Positions 10,024-64,000 of a stretch of DNA of 64,000 bases are shown piece after piece. The notes below the pieces were generated by a model. That model saw only the letters and a program-made list of their open reading frames with translations. It searched no databases and was not told where the DNA came from. How positions within the stretch are numbered: the stretch's first letter is position 1; each line of letters starts with the position of its first letter. Both the position numbers and the translations under genes were made by a program. The stretch spans positions 62,001 through 126,000 of the forward strand of contig JAJVIK010000014.1 in NCBI GenBank assembly GCA_022072055.1, given 5' to 3'. This DNA comes from a bacterium. GTDB lineage: Bacteria > Hinthialibacterota > Hinthialibacteria > OLB16.

Positions 10024-13000
10024 TCAGGGGAATGAACAGTTGGTGAATCCGCTTGTCGCAGAGATCAACAACGTTCCTCCGCCGGCTGGGTTCAATCCAT
10101 CAACGTACGCCTCGACTCCCGGGGTGCTGGTCGCGGCCATTCCGTTCACCCCGAAATCATTGGTTGTTGAGACCGTGCCTTGCTTGCGGAGCCCGATGCC
10201 CTGCGAGCCGCCGCTCCCGGCGCTGGTATTACCCGAGATGTTCAAACAAACGGAATCATCGACGCTGACTGCGTTGCCGGCATCCACTCGGATTCCCGGC
10301 CGGACTCCACCCAAGGGAGCAGCGACTGTGTTGTTTTGGATTTTCGCCCTGACTATCGCAGTGGCGTCGCGAGCGGTTACCAGAATCCCGTTGCCGTCCG
10401 TCTGGCTGATATTGTTGTTGTTGGCGGTAATCTCCAGTGAGGGTGAGTCGGAGGCTGCAAAGGTCTGGCTGGTTCCTGCGCCGATGCCCTGCGCCCCCAC
10501 CGCGTTGTTGGCGACGATGACATTGTTATTGACCGTGGCGGTTACATCAGCTTCGCCCAGGGCGGAAACAGAAATGGCGGTCCCGAGCACGTTCGTGATC
10601 GGATTGGCCACGGTTCCGTTGCTGGTGATGTTGAAATTGCCCTGTCCTTTCCCGTTGACCACCGCCAGGATGGCTTGAGTGCCGATTCGATTCGCCGCGC
10701 TGAATCCCGCCACTCGGTTGTTGGTGATGGCGATGATATTCGTCCCGCTTCCCAAAGTCCCGAACGTGCCGGCCGGTCCTGCCGCGTTGCCGTTGCCGCC
10801 CTGCGCCTGGATTCCGTTCGCGCTCGGGAAATTGCTGACGATATTGCCATCGATGGTGGCCTTGGTCACATTGGCGACCGTGCTCGCAGACCCAAAAGCG
10901 ACAAACCGGATTCCCGATCCCTTCGAGGTCGCGGTTGAGTTGGTGCTCGTAATCGTATTGTTCGAGAGGTTCGCGTCGCTGATGGTCCCGTTGAAATTAA
11001 AGATGTCGATCCCGTGATAGTAGGCGGTGGTCAAGGTGTTTCCGGTGACGGTCACCACGCCCGAGAGGTTGTTCTCGTTCCCCACCGCCGCCGTGTTGAA
11101 GGCAATATTCGAGGTCTCGACGCCCAACCCTGTCCCGGAATTGTTGACCGTGCTGTTCGTGAACGTGAAATTGACCACGCCGGTCCCCTGGACGCCGCTG
11201 CCGGAGGTGCTCTGGATGTTCATTCGCGTGAAGGAGGGACTGGTCGTACTGGTTAGACTGATGCCGGGCCCCGTGGTGTTCTGAATCGTTCCACCGGAAT
11301 TGGCCGAGCCCGTGCCGGTCACGGTCAGCCCAGCGGTCGACCCGGTATTGTTCAGCACGATCCCGCTGGACGCGCCATTCGCCGAAATGCTCTCGAACGT
11401 CAGCCCGCCTGCGCCGATGGTCGTGTTGGCCACATTCAGCGCCGTCCCCGTGGTCGAGGTCAGCGTGTTATTGGTCATGCCCGCCGGGTCGGTCACGATC
11501 ACCGTGGCGCCCGAACCGGTGGCGTTGAAACCGACCCCGCTGGTCGTGCTGACCGTCATGCCGCCGTCGAACCGGACCGTGCCGCCGGTGTTGGTCAGGT
11601 CGATCGCGTTGGCCGTGGACGTGGTCGCGTTGAGCTGCCCGTTGAAGTCCGTGGTCCCGCCGGTCTTGGCGTTGATGTCCACCGCGTGGTTGGCGTTGTT
11701 GGTCTTGGTGATCGTCCCGTTGTAGGTCACGTTGGCCGTGCTGGTGTCTTCACGGTAGGCGATGCCGCTTGGGTTGTTGATCGAGGCATTCGCGCCGAAC
11801 GTGAATGTCCCGGCGGACCCGGTGGTGATATCGATTCCCGCGTCGCCGCCGTTGAGAGTGGTGGTCCCGTTGAAGTTGTAAGAGGTCGTGCTGTCGGCGT
11901 TGCTGAACTGGAGGCCTGTGCCGTTGGTGGCCGAAAGCGTCCCGGTCTGGAACGTGATCGTGCCGGTGTTGTGGTTGCTGACGTTGACCATCGCCGCGTT
12001 GTTGGCCTGGGTGATCGCCCCGCTGTAGGTCACGCCCGCGGTGCTGGTGGACATGCCGCCGTCCACATTGAAGGCGATTCCCGTGGGGCTGGTGATTGCG
12101 CACCCGGTTCCAAAGGTGAATGCCCCCGCCGAACCGCTGAGAATATCAATGCCGGCGTCACCACCGTTCAGCGTGGTGGTCCCGTTGAAGTTATAAGTCC
12201 CATCGGCGTTGTCGAACTGGAGTCCGGTTCCCATCGAGGCGGAAAGGGTCCCGGTTTGGAAGGTGATGGTCCCGGTCGAGTGCCCGCCGGAGATGCTTGC
12301 CATTGGATTATTGGCGGCCTGGGTGATGCCGCCGGAGTAGGTGCAAGACAGCGTGCCCCCGTTCACCACGAAGGGGATGCCCGTGGCAAGCGTAATCGAA
12401 CCGCCGTTGATGGTCAGGGTTCCAGCGCAGGAGACCAGGTTGATTCCCTGAGCCGCCGAGTTGGTGGAGGTCACGCTCGAGAAGGTCGCTGAAAGCGTGC
12501 CGGTGTTCAGATTGAGCGCCTGATCATCCGTGTTGTTGATGGCGCATTCGTTGACCGTCAAGGTCCCGAAATTTGCGCCGGTGATGGCGTGGCTGGAGCA
12601 AGCGCCGAAGGAGAGACCTCGAATGGTGTTGGTCGATCCGAGGGTGACTCCCACCCCGGAGCCGTTGGCGATGGTCGGATTGCTCCCCCCCGTCGAGGGA
12701 GGACTGCTATCCGCCGGGAAGGTGACACCGGCGGCGGTGGCGAGCGAAACGGTGGATCCTTGCCCGATCAGTTTCTGGTTGTTCAAGAGGGTCAACCCAC
12801 CCGAATAGGGGTTGATGTCGCTGTACAGAAAGATGTTGTCGCCGGCCTCATCCGCCGCTCCGGCGTCGAAGCTGCCCGCTCCGGTGAGTTGGTTGAACGG
12901 GCTGTTCAAACGCCCGTCGCCACCCGCCATCGCCTCATTGTCCACGAACCAGATCACCTCGTTGACCATGAGGTTGACCGTGCCCGTGACCGTGCCGAAT

Positions 13001-16000
13001 CCATTGGTGAGGTCATAGGTGAAGCTCGCCGCGCCCTCGTAGCCCGGATCGGGATTGAAGGTGAAGGTCCCGTTCGAGTTCACCGTGGCGGTGCCGTTGG
13101 TGTCGCTGTTCAGTGACGCCGTAATTGCATCTCCCGAATCATTCGTGAGCACGCTGAAGTTGGTGCTCGCGGCGGTGTTGACCGGCACATTGCCGACAAG
13201 GGTGTGGGGATAGGTGTCGGTCACCGCCACGGGGCGGTTCCCGACGGCCAGGGTGACCGTCCCATCATCAATCCCGGTGGCGTTGCGAAGGCGATACATG
13301 AAACTGAACTCGCCCACGAAGCCTGTGTCGGGAATAAAGGTCAAAGTGCCGTCGCCATTAACTTGGAGCGAGCCCGAGGCTCCCACGACCGCCGTTGTGC
13401 CGGAGGCGTTATCGGTCACCGCGCCGCCTAGATCGAGGCCGCCGAAGAAATCGAGCTCGGCGATTGGGAACCCGAGAGCGTCGTTGAAGAGCAGGTCCGC
13501 GGTGCCGTCCGCCACCATCAACGCAGCATCCATTCCCGTGTGGTATTTATCCCCGGGCGCGCTATTCGAGGCCACGATGTCGTCCACGGCGGTTGGGCTG
13601 GCGTTCACGATGACCGTGGCCGTCGCGTCGTCGAACCCGGCCACGTTTTGAATCCGATACTGGAACGTGTGGGTCCCCGAAACAGTCGGGTTGGCGACCG
13701 CGAAACTCCCGTCGCTGTTTACTGTCAATGTTCCGCCGGCAAAGGTTCCCGCGCCGGTGGTGGCTCCCGCCGCGAAGTCGGTGACCAACACGCTCCCCGT
13801 GATCGAACCGCCGCCGAAGTTGACCAGTGTCGCGGCGGGGAGACCGAGATCGTCATTGGCGAGCAGGCCGGACCCGGCGGAAACGTTGAGCGGATTTCCC
13901 AGAACCACGGAGTAGGTCGGATCATCCACGGCCGTTGGAGCGATTTGGACCTGGATCGTTACTGAACCGACATCCGACCCGGCCACGTTTTGAATCTGGT
14001 AGTCAAAGGTGTATGTCCCGGCGACGGTCGGGGTGGCGAGCGTGATGCTGCCGTTGGCGTTGACGGTCAGATTTCCTCCCGCAAGCGCAACCGTGCTTCC
14101 GGAGGCATGATCGATGACCGTGCCGCCCAAGTCGCCCGCGCCGAAGGAAACCAACGACGCGGGCGGAAACCCGAGGGCGTCGTTCGCCAAGAGATCCGTC
14201 GGTCCGTCGGGCACCGTGAGGGTGACTCCCGCAAGCGTGGCATAGTTGGGGTCATCCACCGCCGTGGGGGCCTCCCGCACCTCGATCGTCGCGGTGGCGT
14301 CGCTGGTCGCAACAATGTTGGTGATTCGATAGATGAAGGTGTATGCGCCCGGGGTGGTGGGCGTGGTGAGAGTGAAGCTCCCATCCGAGTTGACGGTCAG
14401 GGTGCCGCCTGCAAGCGCGACCATGCTTCCGGAGGCATTATCGATGACCGCGCCGCCCAAACTGCCGCCGCCAAAGGAGGTGAGGGTCGCGAGCGGGACT
14501 CCGAGGTCATCGTTGGCAAGCAGATCGGTCGGTCCATCCGGCACGGTCAGTGTCCCACCGGTCACAACGTTGTAATTCGGATCATCAACCGCCATCGGAG
14601 GAGCCTGAAACGTGGTGGTGATGGTGAACACTTGCGGGCCGGAAAGATCGACTCCTCCGTTGGCGGTCCCGCCATCGTCCATGAGCTCGACCGTGACCGA
14701 GGTCACCCCCTCCGCCGTGGCGGTGAAGGTCAGATCGCCGGACAGCGCGTTCACCGCGGGTTGGGTGGAGAACAGCTCCGGACTGGCGCTGGTGACATTG
14801 AAGATGAGCGCTTGCGCGGCCTCATTGGCCGGACCGGCCAGGATACTGGTGGCCCAGCCGGATACCGTGTGAGGGGTCAGCGCGGGACCGGCATAGTCCA
14901 CATCCGGGCCCTTGGCGAAGGAGGGCGCGTCATTCACCCCCTCAAAGGTGATGGTGAACATCTGGCCGGGAGAGGTGTCGTCTCCGCCGTTGGCCGTTCC
15001 GCCGTTGTCCATCGCCTCGACCGTGATCGTGGCCGTGCCGCTGGCGTCCATCGCCCCTTCATAAGTGAGCGTTCCGGTGGGGGAAACCGCGGGTCCGGCG
15101 GCAAATAAAGCCGGACTGGTGTTACCCGTGATGTTGAATGTCACGGTCTGCGCGGACTCATCCGCGGGTCCTGAGGAGATCGAGGTGGCCCAACCGCTCA
15201 CCGAGTGCGGGCCGGAGTCTTCCAATACCTGCTGATTGGCGCCCGCCATGAACGAGGGTTCGTCATTGACCGGGGTCACGCTGAGGACAAAGCTCGCGGT
15301 GGCGGAGGTGTTGTCCCCGCCGTTGGCGGTCCCGCCGCTATCCACCAGCTGCAGGGTGATCGTGGCCGAGCCGACCTGATTCAGCGCCGTGGTGAAGGTC
15401 AGCACGCCGGTCGAAGAGACCGCCGGTCCCGCCGCGAACAGGGAGGAATTCGTGTTCCCAACCACCTCGAAGGTGACTGTTTGGATGGCTTCATCCGCCG
15501 GGCCGCGCGAAATCCCGGTGACCCAGGGGTCTACGGTCTGGGGTCCGGCGTCCTCGAGGACCGCCTGGTCCGCGCCCACCACGAAGCTGGGCTCGTCGTT
15601 GACCGGGTCAATCGTGATCAGGAAACTTTGAGGCGGCGAGGTGTCCGAGCCCCCGTTCGCGGTCCCGGCGTCATCCATCAGTTCGGCTGTAATCGTGGCG
15701 CTCCCGACCTGGTTCGGCGCGGGAGTGAAGGTCAGATCGCCGGTGGAGGAGATTGCCGGTTGGACTGAAAACAGCCCCATGTTGGTGTTGCCGGTGACAT
15801 TGAAGGTCAGATTCTGCCCGGTTTCTCCTTGCCCCTGGTCGAGGTTCGTAGCCCATCCGGGGAGGGTCTGCATCCCACCGTCCTCGAAGACGTTGACATC
15901 GGGCCCCTTGGTGAAGCTGGGCGCGTCGTTGATTCCCGAAACGACAATGCAGACACTGGCCGAGTTGAGATTCCCGCTGGCGTCGGAAATCGTGTAGGAG

Positions 16001-16521
16001 AAGGTGTCGGTGACCGACTGGGTCGGTCCGAGGAACTGGAATACCGCGCCGGGCGTGAACATCAGGCTGCCATCCATGCCGACTTTCACCACGGCCCCGG
16101 AGGCGCTGGTCATCTCGGCGGTGGCGACCTGGATCAGGCTCCCGTCCAGATCGTTGTCGTTGGTGAGCACGCCGCTTGCGGCAACCACCAGCATGGCGTC
16201 CTCGGTGGTGCTGTAAACATCCTTGCGCGCTATCGGAGAGGTGTAGATGGAGCCCGTGACAAACAGGGTGTTCAGGTCCAGGGTCACATCCGCGATCACC
16301 CCTGTGGCGTCCATGACTCCGGTGTTCGAGAGGATCAGCGTGTAGCGCAGCGTGTCCCCGCCGTCGGGGTTGGAGTTCATGTTGTTGTCAACCTGAAGGT
16401 TGTCCTCCAACGTGGCGGTGACATTCTGACTCCAGGAAATGGGAACGACGCAAAAGAGAACCGCCAACGGCAGGAGAATGAATCCGGCTCTCGACAGGAA
16501 TGAGAGAGAGGAAAGGGCCAT
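10024..16521 (-). CDS. Giant secreted multidomain adhesin (cadherin-like/VNDxP repeats plus beta-helix)
   Basis: I choose the ATG at 16521 (2165 residues): it has AGGGG eight bases upstream and begins a clear signal peptide, MALSSLSFLSRAGFILLP, cleaved near ISWSQN. The domains run in order. Residues ~30-200 are DUF11-like and a tandem-95 repeat ending SGINDAP. About four repeats of ~110 residues follow, several ending VNDEP or VNDAP, to ~645. Then about four units of the DDPNY...DLLAND type run to ~1095. From ~1190 (IWFVDNEAMAGGDG, NNQKLIGQG) the protein is a right-handed beta-helix rich in NNT, ITGT and TFQTGTL repeats. It ends in a Cys-containing tail with no recognised anchor. It is probably exported and surface-bound or released. 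It heads the operon with the three collar genes. Confidence 0.88.
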   Translation of the reverse strand: MALSSLSFLSRAGFILLPLAVLFCVVPISWSQNVTATLEDNLQVDNNMNSNPDGGDTLRYTLILSNTGVMDATGVIADVTLDLNTLFVTGSIYTSPIARKDVYSTTEDAMLVVAASGVLTNDNDLDGSLIQVATAEMTSASGAVVKVGMDGSLMFTPGAVFQFLGPTQSVTDTFSYTISDASGNLNSASVCIVVSGINDAPSFTKGPDVNVFEDGGMQTLPGWATNLDQGQGETGQNLTFNVTGNTNMGLFSVQPAISSTGDLTFTPAPNQVGSATITAELMDDAGTANGGSDTSPPQSFLITIDPVNDEPSFVVGADQAVLEDAGPQTVDPWVTGISRGPADEAIQTVTFEVVGNTNSSLFAAGPAVSSTGVLTFTTALNQVGSATITLQLVDSGGTANGGDNTSATASFVLSVTPVNDEPSFMAGANQQVLEDSGPHSVSGWATSISSGPADESAQTVTFNITGNTSPALFAAGPAVSPTGTLTYEGAMDASGTATITVEAMDNGGTANGGDDTSPGQMFTITFEGVNDAPSFAKGPDVDYAGPALTPHTVSGWATSILAGPANEAAQALIFNVTSASPELFSTQPAVNALSGDLTFTATAEGVTSVTVELMDDGGTANGGVDLSGPQVFTITTTFQAPPMAVDDPNYNVVTGGTLTVPDGPTDLLANDDLGVPLATLTSFGGGSLGGAVIDNASGSMVALAGGTLTVNSDGSFTLTTPTTPGAYTFIYRITNIVATSDATATIEVREAPTAVDDPNYATLAGVTLTVPDGPTDLLANDALGFPPASLVSFGAGDLGGTVIDHASGSTVALAGGNLTVNANGSITLATPTVAGTYTFDYQIQNVAGSDVGSVTIQVQIAPTAVDDPTYSVVLGNPLNVSAGSGLLANDDLGLPAATLVNFGGGSITGSVLVTDFAAGATTGAGTFAGGTLTVNSDGSFAVANPTVSGTHTFQYRIQNVAGFDDATATVIVNASPTAVDDIVASNSAPGDKYHTGMDAALMVADGTADLLFNDALGFPIAELDFFGGLDLGGAVTDNASGTTAVVGASGSLQVNGDGTLTFIPDTGFVGEFSFMYRLRNATGIDDGTVTLAVGNRPVAVTDTYPHTLVGNVPVNTAASTNFSVLTNDSGDAITASLNSDTNGTATVNSNGTFTFNPDPGYEGAASFTYDLTNGFGTVTGTVNLMVNEVIWFVDNEAMAGGDGRLNSPFNQLTGAGSFDAGAADEAGDNIFLYSDINPYSGGLTLLNNQKLIGQGSTVSLATAAGVTFPADSSPPSTGGSNPTIANGSGVGVTLGSTNTIRGLSFGACSSHAITGANFGTLTVNECAINNTDDQALNLNTGTLSATFSSVTSTNSAAQGINLVSCAGTLTINGGSITLATGIPFVVNGGTLSCTYSGGITQAANNPMASISGGHSTGTITFQTGTLSASMGTGLQFDNADGTYNFNGTTTLNGGDAGIDILSGSAGAFTFGTGCAITSPTGIAFNVDGGMSTSTAGVTYSGAITQANNAAMVNVSNHNTGTITFQTGTLSATNGTGLQFSNADSTTSYNFNGTTTLNGGDAGIDITTGSAGTFTFGANASINNPSGIAYREDTSTANVTYNGTITKTNNANHAVDINAKTGGTTDFNGQLNATTSTANAIDLTNTGGTVRFDGGMTVSTTSGVGFNATGSGATVIVTDPAGMTNNTLTSTTGTALNVANTTIGAGGLTFESISANGASSGIVLNNTGSTAGLTVTGTGSANSGGTIQNTTGPGISLTSTTSPSFTRMNIQSTSGSGVQGTGVVNFTFTNSTVNNSGTGLGVETSNIAFNTAAVGNENNLSGVVTVTGNTLTTAYYHGIDIFNFNGTISDANLSNNTITSTNSTATSKGSGIRFVAFGSASTVANVTKATIDGNIVSNFPSANGIQAQGGNGNAAGPAGTFGTLGSGTNIIAITNNRVAGFSAANRIGTQAILAVVNGKGQGNFNITSNGTVANPITNVLGTAISVSALGEADVTATVNNNVIVANNAVGAQGIGAGTSQTFAASDSPSLEITANNNNISQTDGNGILVTARDATAIVRAKIQNNTVAAPLGGVRPGIRVDAGNAVSVDDSVCLNISGNTSAGSGGSQGIGLRKQGTVSTTNDFGVNGMAATSTPGVEAYVDGLNPAGGGTLLISATSGFTNCSFP

Positions 16522-16616
16522 GGAGAATCCCCTTGACAGGCGCGCAGGATGGTCCGTGTCGGACAAAGACGGACTTTATTCTATCACATGTCAAGAAAAA
16601 GGCAGAGGATGCCGCA

Positions 16617-56686: not shown

Positions 56687-57553
56687 ATGCAAATCTACAT
56701 CAACGGCGAGTATTGCGAGAAAGAGAACGCCAAGGTTTCGGTCTTCGATCACGGCCTTTTGTATGGCGATGGGGTCTTCGAGGGGATCCGGATCTATCAC
56801 CGGAAGGTCTTTCGCCTGACGCAGCACCTCGCGCGGCTGTTTCGCTCGGCCCGCTACATCAACCTGGCCATCGGCAAGACCCCGGAGGAGATGACCGAGA
56901 TTGTGCTGGAGACCTGCCGTCGCAACGGCCTTGATGACGGTTACATCCGCTTGGTGGTGACCCGAGGCGCCGGGACGCTCGGGCTTTCACCGAAGTCTTG
57001 CCCGAAGCCGACGATCTTTGTGATCGCGGACAAGCTCGCCATCTATCCCCCGGAATATTACGAGAAGGGGCTGGCGCTGCTGACCGTGTCCACGCGGCGG
57101 AACATCATTGACGCGCTCGATCCGCAGCTCAAGACGCTGAATTATCTGAACAACATCTTGGCCTCGATCGAGGCCAGCCGCTCCGGGTTTGAGGAGGCGC
57201 TGATGCTCAACAAGGAGGGGTATGTGGCCGAGGCGGCGGCGGACAACCTCTTCCTGATCCGGGGGACGCGGTTGATCACTCCGGCGACCCACCTGGGGGC
57301 CTTGCCGGGGATCACGCGCGAGGCGATCTTGGAGATCGCGCCGGAGCTGGGGCTGTCTCCGAGCGAGGGGTTCATCACGCTTTCGGATGTGTACAACGCG
57401 GACGAGTGTTTCCTCACCGGCACGGCCGCCGAGGTGATTCCGGTTTCGGAGGTGGACAGCCGTCCGATCGGAACCGGCAAGGCGGGTCCGATGACCAAGC
57501 GGATCATCGAGCGCTTCCGGGCGCTCACCGAGGCGGAGGGGACGGGGTTTTAG
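56687..57553 (+). CDS. ilvE: Branched-chain amino acid aminotransferase (IlvE-like, PLP fold IV)
   Basis: This 288-residue protein has GVFEGIRIYHRKVFRLTQHL, the Schiff-base Lys in DPQLKTLNYLNNI and the phosphate-binding AEAAADNLFLIRG. These match IlvE and the related D-amino acid transaminases; DAAT and IlvE are hard to tell apart by eye. It would transfer the amino group from glutamate to branched-chain keto acids, which fits its neighbour PII as a nitrogen sensor. Confidence 0.88.
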   Translation: MQIYINGEYCEKENAKVSVFDHGLLYGDGVFEGIRIYHRKVFRLTQHLARLFRSARYINLAIGKTPEEMTEIVLETCRRNGLDDGYIRLVVTRGAGTLGLSPKSCPKPTIFVIADKLAIYPPEYYEKGLALLTVSTRRNIIDALDPQLKTLNYLNNILASIEASRSGFEEALMLNKEGYVAEAAADNLFLIRGTRLITPATHLGALPGITREAILEIAPELGLSPSEGFITLSDVYNADECFLTGTAAEVIPVSEVDSRPIGTGKAGPMTKRIIERFRALTEAEGTGF

Positions 57554-57554
57554 G

Positions 57555-57683
57555 GCGGTTAACGTTATCCTTGTAGCGCGGTGGAGGGCCACGCTCGGTC
57601 GTGGCTGGTCTTACAGGACCACTGGACGCGACGGAGCGCGTCCCTCCAACGCTTCATCCGAGTGTGAAATGCTCTAGAGCCGC
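57555..57683. mobile_element. Inverted, diverged copy of the MITE-like repeat
   Basis: On the reverse strand the segment reads CTCTAGAGCATTTC near 57680, then AGCGTTGGAGGGACGCGCTC and CCAGCCACGACCGAGCGTGG, aligning over about 130 bp to 51264-51400. The far end (GTTAACCGCC) is degenerate and the terminal inverted repeat is lost. It fills most of the gap between the aminotransferase and the beta-helix gene B; no other gene is seen there. Confidence 0.7.
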
Positions 57684-57721
57684 CCGGTATTGAACGCGCC
57701 GGCACCGGAGCGCGGACAAAA

Positions 57722-59368
57722 TCAATTCCGCTTCTTCTCATTTGCCAACCTCTGAATCAATTCGAGTAGATCCCGGGCATCGATGATCGCCTCCTTGTCC
57801 CCTTTCAGCTTGGACTTTCCCCCAATTGCCTGATGCCAGAGACCCTGAAAATGGAAAACCTCCTCGGCGCGGCCCTGGCCGCCCTCCGGGGTCGGTGTGA
57901 GCGTGGCCTCCAACGTGCGGGTTGGCGTTGCCGTGAAGTCGGTTTCATCCAGCGTTGGAGTGGGGCTGAAGTCGGTTTCATTCATGGTCGGGGTGCGAGT
58001 GAAGGATTTTGTCCTTGTTATTGTTCGTGTTAAAGTCACCGTGGGAGTCAACGTGATGGTTGGCGTCCCTGTCGGAGTCCGGGTGGCGAAATCCTCCAAC
58101 TGGAACTCGTAGGCCCCCATGTCGAACGCGCCCGCGCCTTCGGTCCCCACTCCCACGATGTCCACGGGTCGCGGTTTCCCATCCAGATCGGTGGTCGCCG
58201 AGGTGATTGTTCCGGAGTCGATGCAGGGGGAGTTTGGCAAGAGCCGGTAATCGCCGACGTCGGGATTCACGAACATGGGGTCGGCGTCGATGTTACCGGG
58301 GCCGGGGTAACCCCCCTCCACCAAGGAATAGCTGACCTCCCCCGCATGGAGTTCCCCCGCGGGGTTTCGGAAAATACAATTCGTGGCGTGGAATGTGCCG
58401 CCCCAGTTGTCGATGGCCGAACTCTGCCTCGCATCATTGTCGGCGATGGTCGTTTCCGCCAGGTTGACAACCGACTCCTGCAGAAAAATTGCCCCGCCAT
58501 ACGAGATGTTCCCTGTCCCCAGAGCATAATCTTGACTCCTCACAATGGAGCAATTTCGCATCCAAAGCCGGGACCCCCCACGTACGTACACGCCTGCCCC
58601 ATATTGATAGTGATATCCCTTGATTGTGTTATCGCCAATTACGCAGTCATTCATTCGAACTTCGGATGATATCGCCGAAATAGCTCCACCATAACCTGAG
58701 TCATTAAATGGATTCCCGCCCAAGGCAACGTTTCGGACAATCTGAGAATCCTCAATCACCACGTTTGAGCGCCAGCAGTGGATTCCCCCTCCAGGATATC
58801 CAAAGGCGACATTCTCTTCGATGAGACAATTACGGATTGTCATTGTGCAGCTCTCAATCAACACTCCCCCTCCAGAGTCCGCAACACCGCCCGAAATGAT
58901 GAATCCGTCAATCATCGCTCCCTGGGCGCCCACCACCGCGTTTTGGTCGTCCGGTATTTGCACGTAAAGCAAAATGTCAGTAAACTCATCCAGGTTGATA
59001 TTCGGGTAAGCAAGCGCGAAGAGCGTTCCTTCGGACGCGCGGATCGACGAGGGCCGCAGATCCGGATCTCGTCGATGGAACTCATGGTCCATCTCCGTGC
59101 CGGAAAATCCACCATAAACCGAAACTTCAGGGACCAAGCGTACAGTTTCGGGATACAGCCCTTCTCGGACCCAAATCTGATCCCCGCTCGTTGCGGCGGC
59201 GATGGCGTCGGCAATTGTCACGAACGCGGATTCCCAGGATTGACCGTCGGCGCCGCTCCCTGTCGAGGAGACTTTGATAATATTGGAAGCGGAGTTCGCG
59301 GAGCTCCATTGTATCACGCCCATCAGGGCCAGAAGACCTACAAGCGAGTTAGCGCATCTGTTCCGCAT
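57722..59368 (-). CDS. Secreted beta-helix protein B with TP-linker and dockerin-like tail
   Basis: The ATG at 59368 (548 residues) follows AAGGAG. A signal peptide is followed by a pectate-lyase-like right-handed beta-helix (residues ~30-345, QIWVREGLYPETV, ISGGVADSGGGV), then the region NIDADPMFVNPDVGDYRLLP of choice-of-anchor-Q type. A Thr/Pro-rich linker (~425-490) and a C-terminal ~50-residue module with VFHFQGLWHQ and AIIDARDLLELIQRL end the protein. The last ~580 bp of the gene are nearly identical to gene A. The IS630 element ends 25 bp upstream of the start. Confidence 0.85.
   Translation of the reverse strand: MRNRCANSLVGLLALMGVIQWSSANSASNIIKVSSTGSGADGQSWESAFVTIADAIAAATSGDQIWVREGLYPETVRLVPEVSVYGGFSGTEMDHEFHRRDPDLRPSSIRASEGTLFALAYPNINLDEFTDILLYVQIPDDQNAVVGAQGAMIDGFIISGGVADSGGGVLIESCTMTIRNCLIEENVAFGYPGGGIHCWRSNVVIEDSQIVRNVALGGNPFNDSGYGGAISAISSEVRMNDCVIGDNTIKGYHYQYGAGVYVRGGSRLWMRNCSIVRSQDYALGTGNISYGGAIFLQESVVNLAETTIADNDARQSSAIDNWGGTFHATNCIFRNPAGELHAGEVSYSLVEGGYPGPGNIDADPMFVNPDVGDYRLLPNSPCIDSGTITSATTDLDGKPRPVDIVGVGTEGAGAFDMGAYEFQLEDFATRTPTGTPTITLTPTVTLTRTITRTKSFTRTPTMNETDFSPTPTLDETDFTATPTRTLEATLTPTPEGGQGRAEEVFHFQGLWHQAIGGKSKLKGDKEAIIDARDLLELIQRLANEKKRN
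57737..58317 (-). repeat. 580-bp near-identical 3' module shared with gene A (copy B)
   Basis: This stretch matches 60531-61110 with no indels that I can find, only scattered substitutions. It encodes the choice-of-anchor-Q segment, the TP-rich linker and the dockerin-like tail. The two genes differ sharply before this point. Recent duplication or gene conversion is likely. Confidence 0.85.
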
Positions 59369-59469
59369 GGCACTTCTCCTTGGAGGGGCTATTATACACG
59401 GCGTCTTAAGTGATTGCGCATCGTTCATGGTTGTGTTAACCTCCCTGCAGGGAATGGGGGAGGGACATC

Positions 59470-59994
59470 ATGCGCAGGTTGGAAGTACAACATGCTGAGT
59501 TCATGCGACTCGCGGTTCAGGACGAGATTCTCCGCTCGGAGGAGTCTCGCTATGACCACCGCCTGCACGGGATTCTGCTGGTTTGCTCCGGGTTCAGTTG
59601 TTCGGAAGTGGCGGAACTCTTGGGGCAAAGTCGGCGCACGGTTCAATACTGGGTTCGGCGCTTCGAGCGGAGCGGCTTCGCCGGGCTGCAGGAGGGCTTG
59701 CGAGCAGGGCGTCCGCCTGCGCTGGATGAGGAAACCCTGGAGGAGATTGGGAGAGACCTGCGGCGCTCGCCGCGTGATTGGGGGTACTCCCAGAATCTGT
59801 GGGATGGAAAACTTCTCAGTCATCACTTGGCCGAGCGGTACGGAGCCCGGCTGGGCGTGCGGCAATGCCAACGGTTGTTCCGGCGGTTGGGATTTCGGCG
59901 CCGCAAACCGCGGCCGGTTATTGCCCAGGCTGACCCTGAAGCCCAGCGGGCATATAAAAAAACTGCGCCGCTTGGCCGCCAGGGAAGACCTTGA
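59470..59994 (+). CDS. IS630 transposase, N-terminal frame
   Basis: This 174-residue frame starts at an ATG with GGAGGG seven bases upstream. It carries the helix-turn-helix DNA-binding region (GFSCSEVAELLGQSRRTVQYW) and the QRLFRRLGFRRRKPRP linker before the catalytic domain. The frame runs into a stretch of seven A (59956-59962) and then leaves the transposase sequence. Read on in the +1 frame it continues KKLRRLAARE, so full-length enzyme needs a +1 shift, slippage or a repaired A6. Confidence 0.85.
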   Translation: MRRLEVQHAEFMRLAVQDEILRSEESRYDHRLHGILLVCSGFSCSEVAELLGQSRRTVQYWVRRFERSGFAGLQEGLRAGRPPALDEETLEEIGRDLRRSPRDWGYSQNLWDGKLLSHHLAERYGARLGVRQCQRLFRRLGFRRRKPRPVIAQADPEAQRAYKKTAPLGRQGRP

Positions 59995-60508
59995 CCTCTG
60001 GTTCGAGGACGAGTGCCATTTCCAGCAGCACGGTTCACGCTGCACGATGTGGGTCCCTCCTGAAAATCGCGACCCCATTCTCCAGCACGCCCCAACCCGC
60101 AAGAGCCTCGCGGTCTTCGGAGCCGTACGCGTGGAAGACGGCCGCTTGGTCACACGGCAAGCGGAAGTGTTCGACGCCGCCTCGTTTCAGTCTTTCCTCA
60201 AGCAACTCCTGCGGCACCTTCATAACGGCCGCAGAATGTTGGTTGTTCTGGACAATGCACGCTATCATCACGCCGCGAACCTCCAACCGTGGTTGTGGAA
60301 ACACCGTCATGTACTCAGCCTTGATTTCCTGCCGCCATATAGCCCGGAGCTCAATCCCGTGGAGCGGGTTTGGAAGATGACCCGCCACCTGTGCACCCAC
60401 AACCGTTACTCCGCCCAGCTTGAAGAACTAACCCAGGCAGTCTTTGACCAATTCCATCTTTGGCAGAAACCAAACACAGAACTCCAGAGTGTATGCGCAA
60501 TCATTTAA
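59957..60508 (+). CDS. IS630 transposase, C-terminal DDE frame
   Basis: This frame carries the catalytic core: the first Asp in LDLWFEDECHFQQHG, the second in RMLVVLDNARYHHA and the Glu in YSPELNPVERVWKM, the DDE triad of IS630 enzymes. I give the coordinate from the A-run where the two frames meet; there is no independent start signal. It is offset by +1 from the N-terminal frame. Its stop (TAA at 60506) lies within the right terminal repeat. Confidence 0.8.
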   Translation, partial: KKLRRLAAREDLDLWFEDECHFQQHGSRCTMWVPPENRDPILQHAPTRKSLAVFGAVRVEDGRLVTRQAEVFDAASFQSFLKQLLRHLHNGRRMLVVLDNARYHHAANLQPWLWKHRHVLSLDFLPPYSPELNPVERVWKMTRHLCTHNRYSAQLEELTQAVFDQFHLWQKPNTELQSVCAII

Positions 60509-62186
60509 GGCGTAATGTATAACGCCTGTCCTCATTTGCCAACCTCTGAATCAATTCGAGTAGATCCCGGGCATCGATGATCGCCTCCTTGTCCCCTTTC
60601 AGCTTGGACTTTCCCCCAATTGCCTGATGCCAGAGACCCTGAAAATGGAAAACCTCCTCGGCGCGGCCCTGGCCGCCCTCCGGGGTCGGTGTGAGCGTGG
60701 CCTCCAACGTGCGCGTTGGGGTTGCCGTGAAATCGGTTTCATTCAGCGTGGGAGTGGGGCTGAAGTCGGTTTCATTCACGGTCGGAGTGCGAGTGAAGGA
60801 TTTGGTCCTCGTTATTGTTCGTGTTAGAGTCACCGTGGGAGTCAACGTGATGGTTGGCGTCCCAGTGGGAGTTCTGGTGGCGAAGTCCTCGAATTGGAAT
60901 TCGTAGGCCCCCATGTCGAACGCGCCCGCGCCCTCGGTCCCCACCCCCACGATATCCACGGGTCGCGGTTTCCCATCCAGATCGGTGGTCGCCGAGGTGA
61001 TTGTTCCGGAGTCGATGCAAGGCGAGTTTGGCAAGAGTCGGTAATCGCCCACCTCGGGATTGACGAACACCGGGTCCGCGTCAATGTTGCCCGGGCCGGG
61101 GTAACCCCCTTGGATGCTCGAGTACCTTGCGCTCCCCGTCGTTAGTTCATGTCCATGGTTCCAAAGGATGGAGTCCTGGATGGAAATGTCTGAGGCGACT
61201 CCTTGTATACCACCGACTGCGACCGATTCAGCTTCCCCCGCCACATTGTTCGCCAAAGTGCAATGTGTGGCAGAAAGGACAGAATCAAAAAGGAAAATGC
61301 CGCCTCCATTTCCGTTGTTCGCCACACCGATGTCTCTTCTCTGGTTTCCGGCGATCAAGCAATTGATCAAGTCCATTTTCGTCTTCTCGTCAGCCGCAAT
61401 TCCGGCCCCGTAGTCCTCGAATCCGTATACTGTAACGTTCCCCTTGATTAACGAGTCAACGATTGATATGACCGAGTTACGAGCGTACAACGCCCCACCA
61501 AACGAATCCGAGCCTCCCCAAGGGTTAACGCCAGAACAGAGATTAAACACGATCCTCGTTCTTTCTATACGGATCGTCGATGAAGCACACCAGATACCGC
61601 CCCCCTGGGCAAATTCACCGACTGCAAGGTTCCGGGTTATCTTGCAGTTTCGAAGAGTAAGTGTCGCATCGAGGCATCGGATACCACCTCCATTTTCCGA
61701 AACTCCTCCCGAAACCGTCACGCCGTCAATGATGGTGTCGGTTGCCGCCACAATGCAAGGGAGGTCGAGACCAGCAGCCTCGTGTGCGGGTTGTAGGCCT
61801 TCGAATCCTGTTGAAGCTGCAATGCGGTCGAAGTAGGGTGAATCGGTGGCGGATATTATAGTTTCGTGGGATTCGAAATCACGACTATGGATGGTTTCGC
61901 TAACTTCGCCTCCAGCAAAGCCGCCATAGAGTGACAAACCCGGCTTCAGGACAATCGCCTCCTTATATATCCCTTCGCTGATCCAAATGTCGTCCTCGGA
62001 AGTGGCGGATGAGATTGCATCCGAAATACGCCAGTGCGCAGAGGACCATGAGCGGCCATCCGAATCATCGCCTTGTGGGGACACAAACCAGGTTGCCGCA
62101 TGTGAAGTGACCTGGAATAGAGCAAGTGGCAGCAATCCACGTAGCACCAAGGGCCGTGCGTGATAAACCATGCCGGTCAAAACCAT
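60501..62186 (-). CDS. Secreted beta-helix protein A, 3' end truncated by IS630
   Basis: The ATG at 62186 (561 residues) follows GAGG and gives a signal peptide (VYHARPLVLRGLLPLALFQ). Residues ~35-385 are a beta-helix with ISEGIYKEAIVLKPGLSLYG and AIVSGG-like turns (VSGGVSENGGGIRC), then the same choice-of-anchor-Q, TP-linker and dockerin-like module as gene B. The last residues, DRRYTLRLK, come from the IS630 end, so the original C-terminus was replaced. It follows a GSDH-like gene by 25 bp on the same strand. Confidence 0.85.
   Translation of the reverse strand: MVLTGMVYHARPLVLRGLLPLALFQVTSHAATWFVSPQGDDSDGRSWSSAHWRISDAISSATSEDDIWISEGIYKEAIVLKPGLSLYGGFAGGEVSETIHSRDFESHETIISATDSPYFDRIAASTGFEGLQPAHEAAGLDLPCIVAATDTIIDGVTVSGGVSENGGGIRCLDATLTLRNCKITRNLAVGEFAQGGGIWCASSTIRIERTRIVFNLCSGVNPWGGSDSFGGALYARNSVISIVDSLIKGNVTVYGFEDYGAGIAADEKTKMDLINCLIAGNQRRDIGVANNGNGGGIFLFDSVLSATHCTLANNVAGEAESVAVGGIQGVASDISIQDSILWNHGHELTTGSARYSSIQGGYPGPGNIDADPVFVNPEVGDYRLLPNSPCIDSGTITSATTDLDGKPRPVDIVGVGTEGAGAFDMGAYEFQFEDFATRTPTGTPTITLTPTVTLTRTITRTKSFTRTPTVNETDFSPTPTLNETDFTATPTRTLEATLTPTPEGGQGRAEEVFHFQGLWHQAIGGKSKLKGDKEAIIDARDLLELIQRLANEDRRYTLRLK
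60531..61110 (-). repeat. 580-bp near-identical 3' module shared with gene B (copy A)
   Basis: This is the counterpart of the block at 57737-58317, same length, encoding the choice-of-anchor-Q segment, the TP-rich linker and the dockerin-like tail up to LIQRLANE. Similarity stops abruptly at GAG|GACAGG where gene A differs and the IS follows. Confidence 0.85.
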
Positions 62187-62211
62187 AATTGACCTCAATT
62201 CTCACAATTGT

Positions 62212-64000
62212 TCAGAGTCCGGTGCGAAAGCGAATTCGATGCATTGAATTGTTCAACAGTATATACAGTGAACCATCAGGACCTTCTATCATTTCACGAT
62301 TGGAGAAATTCCGACCTGTGTTGAACCAGTCAAAATTGTCTGTCAGGGTATTGATCGGCTCCGGATCATCGAGAATCGATTCATCGACTCTTGAAATGAT
62401 ACCGGTCACGAAATCCATGAATAGAAGATCCCTCTCATATCCACTTGGTAGAAATCCTGACGTTATGAAAACAGGAGAAGTCACTGTGCCATACTTGGGG
62501 TTGGTTCCGTACGGTCTTAAATAAAACACTGCAGGTGGGGAGAGGCCTGCAAAAGAAGTATTTGGGAAGCTGGCGCAATCGGAGAGATCTCCGTTCCCAT
62601 TGGAGCAGCCAGCATCACACCCGGTATACATTTCATACCCACTGCTTGGCCATACGACCGAGCCTGACGAGTTTCCTTCGACACGGGGAAAGCCGAAATT
62701 CTTGTGGTCTGAGGGATTCGGTGTCGCTGAAAAGGACAGGGACATTCGATTTATCTCCTCAAAACCTCGTGTGCTGACGCCTCCAACGTCTGCAACCCAT
62801 ATCTCACTCGGCACGTCCGGATCCTCCCCCGGCCTCAGACCAAAGGTATATGGATTACGAAGACCCGAGGCGATGATTTCAGCTCTTGGTAGACGCTCCC
62901 CAGGTGTCGGGACCGGAGTCGGTTCCTCGGTTGGTGTCGCAGTTAACCACCCGGTGAAGGGGTTGTTCTCAGGGATTGAGAGGTCTCCGTCGGATTCAAT
63001 CTCATATCGAAGGAGCTTCCCGGGGTAAACTCTGACGTCTTGCGGCCTACAACTCATTTCTCCCGAATCATTCTCATGGTCAACGCATCCCGTCGAAAGT
63101 AGCAAATAGTCGTGAGCTCCGTCTGAATAAGCCCGCAAGCATCCTCCGGTGTGATCTAGTCGCTCGATGGATGATGCGGGCCTGTTGCCCGCGTAGACCA
63201 AAGGGGAGCCAGGAACCGGTGCCGGCGTTGCAATAGGAGTCATCTGGGAATTGACCTCAAAACGATAAACCTTGTTAACCCATGCCTCAATATCTGGGCG
63301 ATAGGGATCACCTGAGAAAGTTACGCTATTCACATCCGTCCCATAAACATAAATGAACCGCTTCGGAGATTGGGGGGCGGCAAAGTCAGGGTGGCATGCA
63401 ATCCCCATTAGCCCATGCTGTCCCTCCTCGTCGGGTGGTCGTGTGAGCAAAGCCGACAAGTCCTCAAGATCACCGGCTCTAAGAGTTCCATCATCTTCTA
63501 TGATCCGGATTTTAAAAGTTTCCTGTTCAGTTACAAGGATCGTCCGATCGGTTCCGGGAACGAAGGTAAAGTGGTTTGGATCAGCTAATGACGCGGCTCC
63601 CTGCTCGGGATCATCCCATCGCTCCTCGATGAAGCCCACCGGACGATTGTCTTGCTTGGTACACTCAATTACGAGTGTACCGTCCGAGACATCCGTATCC
63701 TGATCATGGTATTCTTGCTTGAGCTCCATGAGGGGTACCGCGGATTTGGTGACCCTTATGTGATTCGGGGCTTCAGAATAATACGAGAAGTCTGGATCGT
63801 CCTCGTCGAGGGGTCCCGCCAGCACCAAGTCGTATTTCTCCGTCTGGTTGTTTTGGTAAACGGCGGCGACCTGGGTGCCTGAACTATTCTTGACTTGCCA
63901 CACCACGCTGCCCGACACGGCGTAGGTTGAGAGATGGGTGGCCACGGTCTTGTTCTCATGGACCTCGCCTTCGACAATCAGGTGGCCGTTCTCGTCCAGG
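62212..64000 (-). CDS. Secreted PQQ-dependent sugar dehydrogenase-like (GSDH) protein, partial N-terminus
   Basis: The frame is open from 63999 past the window edge, so the start is missing. The visible ~595 residues include propeller-type segments of soluble aldose sugar dehydrogenase: RILVTEQETFKIRI-like strands, GLMGIACHPDFAAP, GLRNPYTFGLRPGED and NFGFPRVEGNSSGS. A TP-rich insert (ATPTEEPTPVPTP) is placed in a loop. The sequence before the core (DENGHLIVEGEV) suggests an additional N-terminal domain. It heads the minus-strand set with genes A and B, 25 bp before A. PQQ-binding His residues cannot be confirmed. Confidence 0.75.
   Translation of the reverse strand, partial: LDENGHLIVEGEVHENKTVATHLSTYAVSGSVVWQVKNSSGTQVAAVYQNNQTEKYDLVLAGPLDEDDPDFSYYSEAPNHIRVTKSAVPLMELKQEYHDQDTDVSDGTLVIECTKQDNRPVGFIEERWDDPEQGAASLADPNHFTFVPGTDRTILVTEQETFKIRIIEDDGTLRAGDLEDLSALLTRPPDEEGQHGLMGIACHPDFAAPQSPKRFIYVYGTDVNSVTFSGDPYRPDIEAWVNKVYRFEVNSQMTPIATPAPVPGSPLVYAGNRPASSIERLDHTGGCLRAYSDGAHDYLLLSTGCVDHENDSGEMSCRPQDVRVYPGKLLRYEIESDGDLSIPENNPFTGWLTATPTEEPTPVPTPGERLPRAEIIASGLRNPYTFGLRPGEDPDVPSEIWVADVGGVSTRGFEEINRMSLSFSATPNPSDHKNFGFPRVEGNSSGSVVWPSSGYEMYTGCDAGCSNGNGDLSDCASFPNTSFAGLSPPAVFYLRPYGTNPKYGTVTSPVFITSGFLPSGYERDLLFMDFVTGIISRVDESILDDPEPINTLTDNFDWFNTGRNFSNREMIEGPDGSLYILLNNSMHRIRFRTGL

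Follow-up and report, generated by a model that had tools for sequence, protein, structure and literature searches.

Segmental gene conversion as the probable source of the shared ends in a tandem array of secreted beta-helix genes

Introduction

BH1 and BH2 are tandem genes of a Hinthialibacterota bacterium. They encode secreted-type proteins of 548 and 561 residues, respectively, each with an N-terminal hydrophobic segment. Their beta-helix heads differ, and the remainder of the two proteins, from the choice-of-anchor Q segment to the C-terminus, is nearly the same. This locus raises the question of how divergent heads came to carry a common 3' module, for which the initial annotation proposed gene conversion or module shuffling. 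The window analysed here is a stretch of 64,000 nucleotides (C19:62001-126000) from a 5.86-Mb genome of 32 contigs, which appears to be a draft assembly. Positions given without a contig refer to the window.

Organisation of the Array

The features of the array are listed in Table 1. The array is composed of a duplicated two-gene unit, in which a gene resembling glucose/sorbosone dehydrogenases (GSDH-like, PF07995) is followed by a beta-helix gene. A GSDH-like gene is found upstream of BH2 and of a third beta-helix head located on contig C5, unlike BH1, which has no such partner. The GTG start of the GSDH-like gene preceding BH2 lies past the window end, at the window-equivalent position 64164. 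The tandem gene pair annotated initially is real, but the ATG assigned to BH1 (59428) falls within an IS630 element, and the start codon is likely the one at 59368.

Table 1. Positions of the beta-helix array and its components in the window.
Feature	Position	Strand	Description
BH1	57722..59368	-	signal peptide, right-handed beta-helix (~residues 28-350), choice-of-anchor Q, Thr/Pro linker, two-helix tail
BH2	60501..62186	-	BH1-like architecture; stop moved six codons by IS630 in the original TAA
Shared 3' module in BH1 (choice-of-anchor Q region, TP linker, tail)	57729..58315	-	nucleotide alignment vs. BH2
Shared 3' module in BH2	60523..61109	-	nucleotide alignment vs. BH1
Perfect 183-bp module end, BH1	57737..57919	-	sequence comparison
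Perfect 183-bp module end, BH2	60531..60713	-	same sequence in the third copy, where contig C19 ends
IS630-family element	59395..60519	+	TA target 59393-59394 and 60520-60521; between BH2 and BH1
GSDH-like secreted protein gene, upstream of BH2	62212..64000 (window part)	-	PF07995

The insertion element, which the initial annotation leaves unmentioned, displays the TA target duplication, the terminal inverted repeats, and the transposase of the IS630 family (NF033545, E 7.9e-28; the N-terminal ORF alone reaches 97.7 bits, against a cut-off of 100 set for the whole protein). A second copy, 90% identical, is located at C3:23174-24291. At the BH2 stop, the third beta-helix copy reads CGTTAATAG (CGT TAA TAG at the stop), whereas BH2 reads CGTTA followed by TACATT; this TAA, compared with the TA plus IS end of BH2, indicates insertion of the element at the TA of the BH2 stop codon. 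The final residues of BH2, YTLRLK, are thus encoded by the IS630 end, and the present stop is inside the element. Before insertion, the BH2 stop would have been ~24 bp upstream of the BH1 start, and the two genes were probably co-transcribed. The transposase is split over two plus-strand ORFs, at 59470-59994 and, in another frame, up to 60508, that overlap at TATAAAAAAACTG. This overlap includes the heptamer A AAA AAC, and the split (59470-60508) reflects either a programmed -1 frameshift or decay.

Domains of the Beta-Helix Proteins

Both proteins match the choice-of-anchor Q family NF041518 above its curated cut-off of 25 (38.1 bits for BH1, 37.7 bits for BH2). The beta-helix family PF13229 (gathering cut-off 25.9) is matched by BH1 (38.3 bits) and by the C5 copy (45.5 bits), BH2 staying under the cut-off with 21.4 bits. 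Many similar proteins with NF041518 and PF13229 exist in the same genome and in G002, a relative of the same family. The AlphaFold2 model of BH1, calculated on a 12-sequence alignment, shows a solenoid of mostly high pLDDT up to ~residue 350, followed by a choice-of-anchor Q region of low confidence and a disordered linker; the C-terminus forms two helices (residues 501-515 and 531-547), and pLDDT values are below 50 for residues 383-532. The best PDB matches of a fold search for the head are Pme8A and Pel9A, of the pectin esterase and lyase kind, with TM-scores of at most 0.49 and ~10-13% identity, a likeness that is only that of a generic beta-helix.

The C-terminal tail had been termed dockerin-like. 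Taken alone, its helices do weakly resemble the double-repeat dockerin-like tail encoded at C16:53016-58004, but Pfam returns no dockerin match even at E 10, and the residues of the type I calcium loops (D-x-[DN]-x-D-G) are largely missing in the tail AEEVFHFQGLWHQAIGGKSKLKGDKEAIIDARDLLELIQRLAN. On these two grounds, the tail is not assigned to the type I dockerins. The BH1 and BH2 tail has a degenerate two-helix form, whereas the other paralogues examined in this genome carry a single canonical loop, such as DINQSGKVDTEDLLLLIADW. Its position after the linker, together with the weak likeness to the C16 tail, suggests that it may act as an anchor or docking element.

Divergence Along BH1 and BH2

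The shared module spans 587 bp with 93.9% identity between BH2 and BH1. It starts with the choice-of-anchor Q region, right after the confidently predicted beta-helix. The initial annotation had called it identical over 580 bp; a shared module of about that length is indeed present, but it is 94% identical, and perfectly so only over its last 183 bp. All 33 mismatches (33/574 bp) fall within the first 391 bp, and the 183 bp preceding the final codons are free of them. Random placement of the 33 mismatches leaves a clean run of this length in 8 of 200,000 permutations.

The heads are far more distant, with 35% amino acid identity and 45% nucleotide identity in a codon alignment, and their synonymous sites are saturated (pS 0.82 over 342 codons). 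The 197 codons of the module, which begins with GGYPGPG and runs to the C-terminus, display 96% amino acid identity, a dS of 0.226, and a dN of 0.021, in line with the original description of differing beta-helices joined to a near-identical segment running from choice-of-anchor Q to the tail. Synonymous differences amount to ~205 for 250 sites in the head vs. 29 for 149 in the module (Fisher odds ratio 18.6, p ~1.6e-35). Divergence is thus strongly unequal along the genes, and not even, the alternative outcome that the initial annotation had named.

The dN/dS of ~0.09 indicates that the module is maintained as a protein. Since the low divergence reaches synonymous sites, protein-level selection is insufficient to explain it, and the copies must have recombined. 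The gene conversion or recombinational shuffling put forward initially is therefore well supported. Furthermore, the module is not uniform: it comprises at least two levels of divergence, with a dS of 0, as in its last full 40-codon block, and of ~0.14-0.33. Such a pattern is consistent with overlapping tracts converted at different times.

The GSDH-Like Gene, the Other Homogenised End

The GSDH-like genes of C19 and C5 exhibit the same contrast at their 5' ends. Their first 89 codons are ~99% identical (dS 0.03), bar one G of a poly-G tract, while the remaining 541 codons have a pS of 0.85 and 59% residue identity. Near-identity covers 18 nt ahead of the GTG start and spans the ribosome-binding site. 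Homogenisation thus affects both outer ends of the two-gene unit but spares its middle. The poly-G tract, located in the signal-peptide region, counts ten G in C5 (C5:3187-3196, L010) and nine in C19 (C19:126082-126090), and, read from its GTG start, the C5 gene falls out of frame. This difference may reflect a slippage switch, a sequencing error, or decay.

The Third Copy and the Assembly Break

An assembly break divides the third beta-helix copy: the tail lies at the end of C19, just outside the window, and the head at the beginning of C5. The 5' third of the module recurs at C5:1-183, the extreme start of the contig, after the third head, and the 3' third at C19:127583-127773, the extreme contig end; over the last 191-194 bp of the module, identity is 98-100%. 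As these are the sole contig ends found with the two parts, C5 and C19 most likely join at the third copy. A single third gene would then run from C5:1293-1 into C19 from 127773 downwards, with ~207 bp lacking between them if it is collinear with BH1. The terminal 99 bp of C5 are exactly those of BH1, which looks like a k-mer overlap, the assembler having presumably halted at a repeated k-mer, and part of the 100% identity could stem from assembly merging.

Within the module, the C5 copy is BH2-like at most informative sites on the 5' side and BH1-like at the last three. This mosaic is suggestive only (change-point test, p = 0.055) and was dropped as a proof of conversion. At least seven of the 64 contig ends of the genome (C3 start, both ends of C4, C5 start, C7 end, C11 end, and C19 end) are located in or beside genes for secreted proteins that display features of beta-helices, choice-of-anchor Q regions, or Thr/Pro linkers, which suggests that secreted-protein repeats break the assembly.

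Distribution and Recurrence

A search at E up to 1 finds the 53-residue tail at three places in the genome, all in this cluster; at the thresholds used, the tail was not found in 13 other genomes of the class. This count, of the kind recommended by the initial annotation, rules out a genome-wide cassette. The proposed common anchoring tail on variable heads holds for the shared tail, but it is restricted to three genes of one cluster, the heads of which are probably old paralogues. The GSDH-like gene was not found, at the thresholds used, in other genomes of the class, and no second strain or close relative carrying the array was found. The choice-of-anchor Q region has 13 matches in the genome and 29 in G002, mostly without the BH tail.

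Similarity to BH1 led to further cases of shared modules in the same genome. In the C1 cluster (C1:408745-416787, L141), three consecutive genes possess unlike heads, namely a repeat-built domain, a beta-helix, and almost only a TP linker, followed by a shared C-terminal module. This module carries the canonical loop DANGDGIVNAKDLLWIL; its core has a dS of 0-0.07, and the second and third genes are identical across 300 codons. A tandem pair on C16 shows a weaker contrast, with a module dS of ~0.45-0.56 vs. saturated heads. The dispersed C7/C15 pair is alike over most of its length, with mosaic blocks of dS 0 and 0.4. The same pattern was rejected for G002: the 93% patches examined (C178/C578) recur mostly outside beta-helix genes and have the appearance of dispersed repeats, not of shared gene tails.

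Origin of the Contrast

The best explanation, to which we give a probability of roughly three in four, is that of old tandem paralogues whose ends underwent segmental gene conversion or an equivalent form of recombination. The locus would be a small tandem array of old secreted beta-helix paralogues, each but BH1 placed after a GSDH-like gene, and the beta-helix heads have diverged to synonymous saturation. The ends, i.e., the choice-of-anchor Q/linker/tail module and the GSDH-like signal-peptide end, would have been repeatedly replaced through homologous recombination among the copies. The conversion tracts would overlap and differ in age, the latest spanning the last 183 bp or more. Functionally, the heads may form variable binding or carbohydrate-active surfaces, the degenerate two-helix dockerin-like tail keeping one partner or location.

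We infer that the contrast arose by conversion, and not by the recent joining of new heads to a copied tail. The three heads are mutual best matches (155-164 bits vs. at most 128 bits for the other heads tested, taken from the same genome or the family relative), which favours old tandem duplication with end conversion over the capture of foreign heads. A tree of the heads is compatible with a three-head clade but lends it no support (p-AU 0.42), and it was set aside as a guide to the order of events.

Head replacement or domain shuffling is the foremost rival, and an unlikely one. A gene or its 3' module would have been duplicated recently and the heads swapped by crossover in the conserved ends, with new heads acquired by horizontal transfer or supplied by other parts of the genome. 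The ends would then be recombination joints and not converted tracts. The onset of the module at a domain boundary and the conservation of the two-gene unit at both outer ends are consistent with it, as is the C1 tail borne by unlike heads, which is beyond conversion alone. Those C1 heads imply module capture at some time, and both processes probably operate in the genome. In the BH array, however, the heads are homologous and best matched to one another, and the different divergence levels inside the module are unexpected from one recent fusion.

An assembly artefact, whereby a short-read assembler would have merged similar tails and put one consensus in several copies, is very improbable. 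Two contig ends do fall inside the module, C5 stopping after exactly 99 bp of BH1 sequence, and other contig ends are in or next to similar genes. Yet BH1 and BH2 keep 33 fixed differences within the module, the contrast returns with different dS values at the GSDH-like 5' end, in C1, and in C16, and merging accounts for the perfect stretch only, not for a 94% identical module next to 45% identical heads. Purifying selection alone, with the tail constrained by a single partner, agrees with the low dN/dS of the module but is hardly credible, as protein constraint cannot hold synonymous dS at 0-0.3 while the head saturates, nor does it account for the identity of the GSDH-like pair through the ribosome-binding site.

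Recombination between old paralogues, our preferred reading, may be extended to a diversification system, in which the conserved ends of the unit would serve as recombination arms, the middles would be exchanged or resorted, and the poly-G tract would act as an on/off switch. We consider this extension improbable. If true, it would reveal surface-protein diversification in a little-studied phylum, its arms being the GSDH-like signal-peptide end and the beta-helix docking tail.

Relation to Known Systems

In Helicobacter pylori, the babA/babB(/babC) and homA/homB outer-membrane protein genes are paralogues in which a variable middle separates an N-terminal homology region from a C-terminal region of more than 90% identity; the 5' region of babB contains a CT tract prone to slippage (PMC4552749; PMC2795765). 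The accounts available in these papers, with the work of Pride and Blaser 2002 cited there, describe concerted evolution of segment 3 by intragenomic gene conversion, with a homA/homB Ks of 0.051 within strains vs. 0.202 between strains (PMC4552749; PMC2795765). The BH array resembles these genes by its conserved N and C regions, its variable middle, and its concerted 3' segment. It differs in protein type and phylum, and its conserved ends belong to two adjacent genes, instead of one. Moreover, the bab and hom genes are documented by strain series, whereas the BH array is known from one genome. In both the BH and the GSDH-like pairs, the synonymous divergence of one segment is far under that of the rest of the gene, and by this within-genome contrast the array can be assigned to the babA/babB kind. 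In Mycobacterium tuberculosis, PE_PGRS17 and PE_PGRS18 are tandem duplicates with unrelated genes between them, and a segment was moved by gene conversion (PMC1762029). They are, however, far more alike overall than the BH genes, and conversion has been shown there across strains.

The kind is thus already known from Helicobacter; in an uncultured lineage, the present array provides a clear example of segmental concerted evolution, in which synonymous sites reveal recombination at one gene end only. Recurrence in other clusters suggests that the C-terminal modules of secreted proteins are commonly recombination substrates in this genome. Such homogenised modules interrupt draft assemblies and may also blur them.

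Other Features of the Window

A search of Rfam on 57000-64000 yields no family at gathering thresholds. Directly downstream of BH1, an intergenic element of ~125 bp (57547-57678, minus strand) has 41 matches in the genome, whole or partial, with 73-100% identity, and folds as a long hairpin (z -2.95). Further away, an ORF of 2180 residues (10024-16566, minus strand) contains internal repeats ~330 bp apart and probably encodes a large repeat-built protein.
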